A stretch of 64,000 nt of DNA from Aeromicrobium yanjiei (GTDB lineage Bacteria > Actinomycetota > Actinomycetes > Propionibacteriales > Nocardioidaceae), in NCBI RefSeq assembly GCF_009649075.1, contig NZ_CP045737.1:3100001-3164000 (forward strand), in the 5' to 3' direction. The first letter of the stretch is position 1. Each line of letters starts with the position of its first letter. The notes beneath the pieces were generated by a model. It worked only from the letters and a program-made list of their open reading frames with translations. It searched no databases and was not told the origin of the DNA. Positions 59,904 to 62,164 of this stretch are shown here, in pieces. The translations under genes and the position numbers were made by a program.

Positions 59904-59942
59904 TCAGGCCCTGACCAGCAGTGTGTGCTGGTCAGGGCCTGA
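59904..59942 (-). terminator. Hairpin terminator downstream of tRNA-Tyr
   Basis: TCAGGCCCTGACCAGCA (59904-59920) and its perfect complement (59926-59942) form a 17-bp stem with loop GTGTG. It follows the tRNA-Tyr 3' end by 7 nt on the minus strand. The tail GTCGTCTCC is weak in U. The other bases between it and the substrate-binding-protein gene hold nothing recognised. Confidence 0.75.
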
Positions 59943-59949
59943 TCTCCCG

Positions 59950-60031
59950 TGGCAGGTGCAGGGTTCGAACCTGCGTAGGCTGAGCCGTCTGATTTACAGT
60001 CAGATCCCTTTGGCCACTCGGGCAACCTGCC
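59950..60031 (-). tRNA. tRNA-Tyr (GTA)
   Basis: A class II tRNA of 82 nt. The acceptor is GGCAGGT/ACCTGCC, the anticodon stem is TCTGA/TCAGA with loop CTGTAAA (anticodon GTA), the variable arm is CGGCTCAGCCTAC-type, and the T-arm is GCAGGTTCGAACCCTGC. No CCA is encoded. A strong terminator follows. Confidence 0.95.
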
Positions 60032-60124: not shown

Positions 60125-60616
60125 ATGGCCGACTCATCCTTCGACATCGTGAGCAAGATCGACCGTCAGGAGGCCGACAACGCGCTGAACCAGGCGGTCA
60201 AGGAGATCCAGACCCGCTACGACTTCAAGAACACCGGCGCCGAGATCAAGTGGAGCGGCGAGTGGGGCGTCGAGATCACCGCGAACGCCGACGAGCGCGC
60301 CCTCGCGGTGCTCGACGTGTTCAAGGACAAGCTGATCAAGCGCGGCATCTCGCTCAAGTCGCTGGAGGAGGGCGAGCCCCGCCAGTCCGGCAAGGACGTG
60401 AAGATCAACTGCACGTTCGGCGAGGGGATCAGCCAGGAGCAGGCCAAGAAGGTCTCCAAGCTCATCCGCGACGAGGGCCCCAAGGGCGTCAAGGTGCAGA
60501 TCCAGGGCGACGAGCTGCGGGTCACGAGCAAGAAGCGCGACGACCTGCAGGAGGTCCAGCAGCTCCTCAAGGGCGCCGACCTGGACTTCGCCGTCCAGTT
60601 CACCAACTACCGCTGA
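60125..60616 (+). CDS. YajQ-family nucleotide-binding protein
   Basis: The protein of 163 residues starts [20 protein letters not shown] and contains [56 protein letters not shown] and [20 protein letters not shown], the standard YajQ order of two ferredoxin-like halves. YajQ proteins bind nucleotides, and c-di-GMP binding is reported for some, with a regulatory role. The ATG 60125 has AGGAG 9-10 nt upstream. It is convergent with nuoN across the two tandem hairpins. Confidence 0.95.
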
Positions 60617-60637: not shown

Positions 60638-60679
60638 GATGAGGGTTTCCGGTAGCTGCGGCTACCGGAAACCCTCATC
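60638..60679. repeat. Long hairpin, copy 1 (19-bp perfect stem)
   Basis: GATGAGGGTTTCCGGTAGC and its exact complement flank a 4-nt loop TGCG. The copy begins 21 bp after the yajQ stop. A second copy with the same ends follows 64 bp downstream. The two may terminate both convergent genes, but neither has a clear U-run on the plus strand beyond CGTT. Confidence 0.7.
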
Positions 60680-60701
60680 GTTCGTCGCCGCCGGGACGGA
60701 G

Positions 60702-60743
60702 GGTGAGGGTTTCGGGCAGCAGGAGCTGCCGCAAACCCTCATC
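60702..60743. repeat. Long hairpin, copy 2
   Basis: The same 19-4-19 layout as copy 1 with the outer TGAGGGTTT/AAACCCTCA kept and the inner stem changed to GGGCAGC/GCTGCCG-type. Two central positions no longer pair, and the outermost pair is a G-U. It sits 17 bp from the nuoN stop. The conserved ends with a diverged stem suggest duplication or a repeated-palindrome family. Confidence 0.6.
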
Positions 60744-60760
60744 GTTGGTCCGCCGGAGGC

Positions 60761-62164
60761 TCAGGGGAGGTGGCGGAGCAGGAGGTCGGGCCAGGCGCTG
60801 AGGGCCAGGAGCGCGGCCGTGCCGATCAGCACCGTGGACTTGGCGACGCGCACCGACACCGGTGGGGACGGGCTGACGTACGCCTCGCCCACCGGTCGGT
60901 CGCACAGCCGCACCACGAGGCGCAGGTAGTACGCGAGGCCCAGCATCACGTTGAGGCCCATCACGACCGCGAGCCAGACGTGGTCGGACTCGACGACCGG
61001 CCGGATCACGACGTACTTGGTCACCAGGCCGATCACGGCGGGCGGGAAGCCGGCCAGCACGAGCGCCGCGACGACCAGCGGTATGCCCATCCACGGATCG
61101 GTGCGGGCCATGCCCCTCAGCTCGTCGAGGCTCGTGCTCCCCCGCAGCCGCAGCACGACCGAGAGCGCCGCGAACGCCACCAGGTTGGCCAGGGCGTAGA
61201 CCGCGAGGTACTGCACCGGAGCCGTCAGGCCCTCGCGCGACAGCACCGCGACGGACGGGGCGATGAGGAAGCCGGCCTGCGCGATCGACGACCAGGCGAG
61301 CAGGCCGATCGCATCGTCCTGCCGCAGGGCCCCGAGGTTGCCGATCGTCATCGTGGCGGCCGCGACCACCGCGAGCACCGGCTGCCACGACGCGTACGCG
61401 TGCGGGAGCGCGACGTTGACCAGGATCAGCAGCGCACCCAGCGCGGCGGCCTTCGAGACCGTCGAGAGGAAGCCCGCGACCATGACCGAGGCCCCCGCGT
61501 ACGCATCGGGGACCCACGCGTGGAACGGCACCGCACCGAGCTTGAACAGCAGGCCGACCAGGGTCAGCACGACCGCCACCGCGACGACGCCCTCGGGCAC
61601 CTCGGGCCGGGCCAGCGCGTCGCGGATCTCGTCGTAGTCCATCGACCCGGTCACCCCGTAGAGCAGCGAGATGCCCATGAGGGTGATCGCGGTGGAGACG
61701 ACCGACGCGAGGAAGAACGTCCACGCCGACCGGATCGCGACCCGGTCGCCCTGGCGCAGACCGACCAGGGCGATCGACGGCAGGGAGAGCAGCTCCAGCG
61801 CGACCACCAGCGTCACCAGGTCGCGCGCGGACACCATCAGCACGCCGCCCGCGGCGGCACTCATCAGCAGGAAGTGGAACTCCCCCGGCGGCATCGCGGT
61901 CTCGAAGTTCATGATGTTGGCCGCGACCACGACGAACAGCGTCCCGACCAGCACGATCGCCGTCAGCGCGAACGTGTAGCTGCCCAGGTCGTCGCGGTAC
62001 GCGTGCGCGAGCACGCCGGCGCCCACGAGGGCGGCCGCGGCCGGCAGCTCCGGGCCGTTCCAGGTGCGGCGGGGGAAGAACGCGTCGACCAGCAGCGCCA
62101 CGAGGGCGCCGGCCATGACGAGCACGGCAGGGGCGACGAGATGCCAGTCGACAGGAATGTTCAT
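60761..62164 (-). CDS. nuoN: NADH-quinone oxidoreductase subunit N
   Basis: The protein of 467 residues is the NuoN proton-pumping membrane subunit of complex I, with about 14 helices. It has Glu and Lys helix segments LVVALELLSLPSIALVGLRQ and VLTLVGLLFKLGAVPFHAWV, and RQDDAIGLLAWSSIAQAGFL. The C-terminus AWPDLLLRHLP is close to the norm. ATG 62164 overlaps the nuoM stop (ATGA). It is the last gene of the nuo operon and ends 17 bp from hairpin copy 2. Confidence 0.96.
   Translation of the reverse strand: MNIPVDWHLVAPAVLVMAGALVALLVDAFFPRRTWNGPELPAAAALVGAGVLAHAYRDDLGSYTFALTAIVLVGTLFVVVAANIMNFETAMPPGEFHFLLMSAAAGGVLMVSARDLVTLVVALELLSLPSIALVGLRQGDRVAIRSAWTFFLASVVSTAITLMGISLLYGVTGSMDYDEIRDALARPEVPEGVVAVAVVLTLVGLLFKLGAVPFHAWVPDAYAGASVMVAGFLSTVSKAAALGALLILVNVALPHAYASWQPVLAVVAAATMTIGNLGALRQDDAIGLLAWSSIAQAGFLIAPSVAVLSREGLTAPVQYLAVYALANLVAFAALSVVLRLRGSTSLDELRGMARTDPWMGIPLVVAALVLAGFPPAVIGLVTKYVVIRPVVESDHVWLAVVMGLNVMLGLAYYLRLVVRLCDRPVGEAYVSPSPPVSVRVAKSTVLIGTAALLALSAWPDLLLRHLP

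Follow-up and report, generated by a model that had tools for sequence, protein, structure and literature searches.

A dispersed family of long, often paired palindromes between genes in Aeromicrobium

Introduction

REPs are short intergenic palindromes that occur in tens to thousands of copies, with several families per organism, and are often paired (PMC3733652). According to that account, dispersed palindromes with a tag are known chiefly from proteobacteria, and a Y1 transposase is credited with many of them; CGTC REPs, which carry an unpaired CGTC tag and an 8–9 bp stem, have no dedicated transposase and set a precedent for REPs without one; one sentence mentions untagged REP-like repeats in M. 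tuberculosis and D. radiodurans, and the word Actinobacteria is absent from the main text (PMC3733652). REPINs are doublets of fixed spacing, and their partners were inverted in 93% of the 430 doublets described in one account (PMC3116915). Other known kinds of repeat or hairpin include MITEs, DNA uptake words, which number hundreds to thousands per genome (PMC2346458), and bidirectional intrinsic terminators. In M. tuberculosis, canonical intrinsic terminators are reportedly few (PMC10937400).

We analyzed a pair of long hairpins between yajQ and a nuoN-like gene in a window of 64,000 nucleotides (the whole stretch of DNA studied) from a genome that YajQ comparison places in Aeromicrobium. 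Like REPs of the GTAG and CGTC superfamilies, the family to which the pair belongs consists of many dispersed, often paired intergenic palindromes and is one of several families in the genus. It falls within REPs in the broad sense of dispersed extragenic palindromes: its 53 units form 25 clusters, and all 24 that were classified are intergenic. Its units of 56–58 nt are, however, larger than the 20–40 bp of a REP unit; they lack the unpaired GTAG end of GTAG REPs, having mirrored GGAC/GTCC ends instead, and in contrast to the tag and short stem described for CGTC REPs (PMC3733652) these ends are symmetric and mostly paired, on arms of about 26 nt. The untagged repeats of M. tuberculosis and D. 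radiodurans, one of which comes from the same phylum, are also dispersed tagless palindromes, a likeness of description and not of compared sequence. MITEs share the small size, non-autonomous dispersal and inverted-repeat structure, but the Aeromicrobium family has no demonstrated insertion-sequence partner or target duplication, PF01797 being the sole transposase family searched. A literature search naming Aeromicrobium returned no paper on such repeats, judged by title or text word, which does not prove them undescribed.

Organization of the hairpin pair

The initial annotation had reported two hairpins 64 bp apart with identical outer ends, paired throughout in copy 1 and mostly in copy 2. 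Both are present where it placed them (Table 1), and copy 2 has the same outer ends as copy 1 (TGAGGGTTT/AAACCCTCATC); its stem is broken by a two-base internal mismatch, with one G-T wobble further out. The 42-nt size given for each hairpin holds for the cores, but the real unit is longer, at about 58 nt. The two units form a direct repeat of 57 nt, 81% identical and 64 bp from start to start, which occupies the gap between the two facing stop codons, at 60616 for YajQ (DUF520) and 60761 for the NuoN-like protein. Relative to shuffled sequences, the fold z-scores were −8.70 for copy 1 and −5.35 for copy 2. Rfam microRNA-precursor models also matched the pair on both strands (best E 8.7e-6, 42.7 bits, below the gathering score of 197), and we rejected these matches as reflecting hairpin shape only. 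Elsewhere in the window, a short hairpin (GGCCCTGACCAGC...GCTGGTCAGGGCC, 59905–59941) adjoins a tRNA gene on the minus strand (59950–60031).

Table 1. Features of the yajQ–nuoN intergenic region (window positions).
Feature	Position	Strand	Basis
yajQ (DUF520)	60125..60616	+	Pfam PF04461; stop codon 13 nt from unit 1
Unit 1, imperfect palindrome of 58 nt with mirrored halves (GGAC end, GATGAGGGTTT arm, GGTAGC inner arm) about a 4-nt loop	60630..60687	.	Sequence, fold, covariance-model match C2:3160631-3160686, 74.2 bits
Copy 1 core, perfect 19-4-19 stem-loop	60638..60679	.	Sequence, fold
Spacer separating units 1 and 2; units plus spacer give the 64-bp period	60688..60693	.	Sequence; junctions of this genome's 64-bp pairs
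Unit 2, same family as unit 1, two-base internal mismatch	60694..60751	.	Sequence, fold, covariance-model match C2:3160695-3160750, 69.6 bits
Copy 2 core	60702..60743	.	Sequence, fold
nuoN-like gene (Proton_antipo_M)	60761..62164	-	Pfam PF00361; stop codon 9 nt from unit 2

A dispersed family of palindromes

Membership of a repeated palindrome family, one of the options in the initial annotation, was borne out when the genome was searched for further copies. The pattern TGAGGGTTT-N20-AAACCCTCA matched 14 times against none for its reversed control, and, when as many as 3 mismatches were allowed, GAGGGTTT-N20-AAACCCTC matched 57 times against 2. A covariance model built from 51 units was used to score 150 of the 3245 first-look candidates; 106 of them were matches (E ≤0.05), the two strands of the 53 units. 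The 25 clusters comprise 18 pairs, 3 singles, 2 triples and 2 quadruples, and the 28 unit-to-unit intervals fall at 64 bp (15 times), 74 bp (11 times), 71 bp (once) and 73 bp (once). The family unit is an imperfect palindrome of weak polarity whose invariant positions are mirror-symmetric.

In about 240 kb of sequence (the window plus stretches picked around units), we counted 51 occurrences of the arm GATGAGGGTTT or its complement, every one within a unit. This distribution bears on whether the units could be inverted pairs of DNA uptake words of the kind known from Neisseria and Pasteurellaceae, with which they share species-specific words, inverted pairing and a position at gene ends. Uptake words also occur inside genes. 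With none of the 51 occurrences outside a unit, in a sample itself chosen around units, we ruled this explanation out and assign it practically no probability.

Placement relative to genes

Gene calls came from a home-made codon-usage finder; 8 of 9 proteins searched against Pfam had a match. Coding regions make up about 91% of the sequence in question, yet every one of the 24 clusters classified is intergenic: 9 lie between convergent genes, 12 between codirectional genes and 3 between divergent genes, and a 25th cluster, found later, is convergent by the same gene finder. By intergenic length, convergent clusters are in excess (9 versus 3.2 expected, p 0.002) and divergent clusters depleted (3 versus 10.8 expected, p 0.0015), whereas by number of gaps the convergent excess is marginal (9 versus 4.8 expected, p 0.04) and there is no divergent depletion (3 versus 4.1 expected, p 0.79). 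The palindrome core lies within 60 nt of 26 of the 30 adjacent gene 3′ ends, and a 3′ end is the nearer gene end for 11 of the 12 codirectional clusters, by a narrow margin in two. Stretches from five other genomes yielded 59 clusters (26 convergent, 26 codirectional, 5 divergent, and 2 inside a called gene). One single unit (C2:1390650; L045:4641-4720) lies between divergent genes for DUF1801 and DNA polymerase III alpha, and after it come a small hairpin, CCCC...GGGG, and a run of T.

This proximity to 3′ ends and convergent gaps, together with the very stable folds, is what would be expected if the hairpins served as bidirectional terminators or 3′-end protectors, halting RNA polymerase or blocking 3′ exonucleases from either side and held 3′ of stop codons by selection. 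Bidirectional intrinsic terminators are strong hairpins 3′ of two facing stop codons, as is the window pair. The Aeromicrobium hairpins nevertheless lack a U-tract, which mycobacterial polymerase is said to need (a requirement attributed to Czyz, 2014): among 106 strand-ends, one has a 6-nt stretch with at least 4 T in the 14 nt past the extended palindrome. A terminator search found no terminator-like site around the window pair. The three clusters between divergent genes also speak against a terminator role, two having Pfam-backed genes on both sides and the third one neighbor lacking a Pfam match. With the further evidence given below, we regard selection for termination or end protection as an unlikely account of the family, although a role in termination is possible as a by-product of the element.

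Base pairing within and between species

The suggestion that kept pairing indicates selection did not stand up within the genome. Over 51 units and 26 pair positions, 77.8% of cells pair, compared to 81.0 ± 0.6% when the 3′ letters are shuffled among units, and all 500 shuffles paired at least as well as observed. The deficit persisted with one unit per cluster (24 units; 442 pairing cells versus 465.6 ± 6.4 shuffled), and the 31 units of genome G019 gave 590 pairing cells versus 628.1 ± 6.7 shuffled. Part of the deficit arises from an asymmetry between arms: modeling the arms as two types gave a better fit than re-pairing them at random, both in the genome studied here (15 shuffles) and in G019 (20 shuffles), where the asymmetry is located at a two-base internal mismatch (columns 19–20). 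Pairing would likewise fall if perfect long palindromes were avoided on account of their instability. A sister family (TGACGTTTC...GAAACGTCA) gave one co-varying position among 17 units of G013 (p 0.0055), with a total of 178 versus 170.4 shuffled, slightly above expectation and opposite to the family studied here, and a total below expectation (48 versus 58.0 shuffled) among 9 units of G020.

Between species, in contrast, the arms do change together. For 11 chosen units from 7 genomes, rows that were found with the structure model and hence lean to paired forms, the covariation score was 0.315, compared with 0.135 ± 0.022 in shuffles (0 of 500 reached it) and 0.017–0.086 with slid partners, and 37 cells were altered on both sides versus 17.8 shuffled. 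Two of the five measures, the number of co-changed pairs and of pair types, were unexceptional (reached by 52 and 87 of 500 shuffles). RNA pairing as a property conserved within the genome is rejected, the arms pairing below shuffles, while between species it is upheld on these 11 units. Taken together, the deficit within the genome and the co-change between species suggest a master palindrome that is altered as one piece from species to species, the copies inside a genome varying around it.

The within-genome deficit counts against a terminator role, as does the balance of sense-strand wobbles in the 12 codirectional clusters, which show no consistent preference (more G-U in 7, more A-C in 4, and 1 tie; the summed 56:29 owes 22:1 to one cluster).

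Presence and absence in a close relative

In the close relative G029, flanks could be placed for 18 clusters, one of them (2843843) through a single flank; the remaining 7 of the 25 were not comparable and are left out of the count. A unit was present at 10 of these sites and absent from 8, contrary to expectation for a required terminator. Among the empty sites is the yajQ–nuoN gap, where 8 bases part the two stop codons. The empty sites are too diverged for any target-site duplication to be read. Where the two genomes share a site, units in G029 are mostly single, and at 9 of these 10 sites its clear units are fewer than in the genome studied here. The site of cluster 1632166 holds a different tandem repeat in G029 (L271:8748-9144), with GAGGGGAG...CTCCCG-like units. 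Beside cluster 373274 (G000:C2 about 373500–373550, L015), a U-tailed hairpin of the ordinary terminator kind is kept in G029 (L280), where the repeats are missing, a further point against the repeats themselves acting as terminators.

The yajQ–nuoN pair looks newly gained, judging from these comparisons, because no family-1 unit was found 3′ of yajQ in the 28 related loci searched (of 80 found). The case for a gain in the genome studied here, as opposed to a loss in G029, applies to the yajQ–nuoN site alone.

Distribution among relatives and sister families

The family model matched in 30 of 49 Aeromicrobium genomes (at least one match, E ≤0.01), with both-strand counts per genome reaching at least 115. 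In a search of 197 genomes of the bacterial family to which the genus belongs, with 28 candidates scored per genome, 52 had a match (E ≤0.001): 28 Aeromicrobium and 24 others. Nineteen of the others had 1–4 both-strand matches, and five, in four genera, had 8–27 among the 28 candidates scored for each. No copy matched in phage, plasmid or viral-contig records. PF01797, the REP transposase (Y1/RAYT) domain, was found in 0 of the 49 genus genomes while 5 of 14 control genomes were positive, and a RAYT was rejected as the mobilizer; in this the family departs from REPIN/RAYT systems, which have an IS200-like Y1 transposase.

At least three further families with unrelated arms exist in Aeromicrobium. 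The TGACGTTTC family occurs in 18 of the 49 genus genomes, with 17 copies in G013 (four genomes have one control match each); TGTGACGCC...GGCGTCACA occurs in 4, with 9 copies in G033; and TCGGCACT...AGTGCCGA occurs in 7, with 8 copies in G008, although in two of these 7, G009 and G015, the match is far shorter and perhaps unrelated. In other species, palindromes of these families lie 3′ of yajQ (the TGACGTTTC type in L065 and L068, the TGTGACGCC type in L056 and the TCGGCACT type in L055), a recurrence that favors a terminator role; by eye, L059 and L061 have no long palindrome there. Two metagenome contigs have other palindromes 3′ of yajQ: a very long-armed one, seen by eye, in a Nocardioidaceae contig (L086:3487-3740), and one with different arms, CCCCAAGATTTGGC...GCCAAATCTTGGGG, in an Aeromicrobium contig (L069:3490-3575).

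The coexistence of families with unrelated arms in single genomes, such as G008 and G033, bears on whether a dimeric DNA-binding protein, of the nucleoid or roadblock kind and drifting in specificity between species, could bind the clusters as arrays of sites with a phase of 64 or 74 bp. Mirror-symmetric invariant positions, degenerate positions without co-variation inside the genome and two favored spacings 10 bp apart would suit such sites, as would the spacing in G019, which is 64 or 63 bp at 13 of the 18 loci retrieved. Each coexisting family would, however, need its own protein, unit numbers vary between close species, few clusters occupy the divergent gaps where promoters lie, and the half-site GATGAGGGTTT is confined to units in the sampled stretches. 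We consider protein-binding arrays quite improbable.

Pairs as units

In the 64-bp pairs of the genome studied here, the outer GGAC ends are kept in 24 of 30 cases versus 14 of 30 for the inner ends (p 0.015), and the 13 such pairs of G019 show the same difference more strongly (24 of 26 versus 10 of 26, p 8e-5); there is no outer/inner difference in the 74-bp clusters (12 of 14 versus 22 of 26). Like REPINs, then, these pairs are doublets of fixed spacing with a species-specific sequence population, and their better kept outer ends look as if the doublet were one element. Partner polarity compares less simply with the inverted partners of REPINs. By the two-arm model, polarity is the same in 13 of 13 G019 pairs and in 11 of 14 64-bp pairs of the genome studied here, with the yajQ–nuoN pair among the 3 of opposite polarity, though partner resemblance itself favors a call of "same"; by the best-scoring strand of model R1, partners are opposite in 8 of the 13 G019 pairs. 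The pairs may instead arise by local duplication, a possibility raised by the mostly single units of G029 at shared sites, and not be the moving unit.

Implications

We propose that the yajQ–nuoN pair probably represents a dispersed, non-autonomous DNA element of REP-like kind, of which it is one copy, a reading based on the species-specific imperfect palindromes, their coming and going between close species and their survival at gene ends. Copies would spread within the genome as hairpin-forming DNA, by means of an enzyme that would be supplied in trans and would not be a Y1 (RAYT-type) transposase. Insertions would survive mainly 3′ of stop codons and between convergent genes, where they would be tolerated, being harmful elsewhere, and an incidental influence of the hairpins on RNA 3′ ends is possible.

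More tentatively, and with doubt outweighing confidence, we suggest that Aeromicrobium and a few neighboring genera carry a RAYT-less mobile system consisting of families of 45–58-nt imperfect palindromes, often doublets with a fixed 64-bp period, whose arms are replaced in full between species yet remain complementary. If true, this would imply an enzyme that recognizes the hairpin and co-evolves with it.

Our findings also advise caution in calling hairpins between convergent genes terminators: the same gap may be empty in a close relative, and within-genome pairing is not what is kept. Several families in an actinobacterial genus in whose 49 genomes the Y1 domain was not found, along with fast turnover between close species, make Aeromicrobium a place to seek another route by which hairpin DNA spreads.
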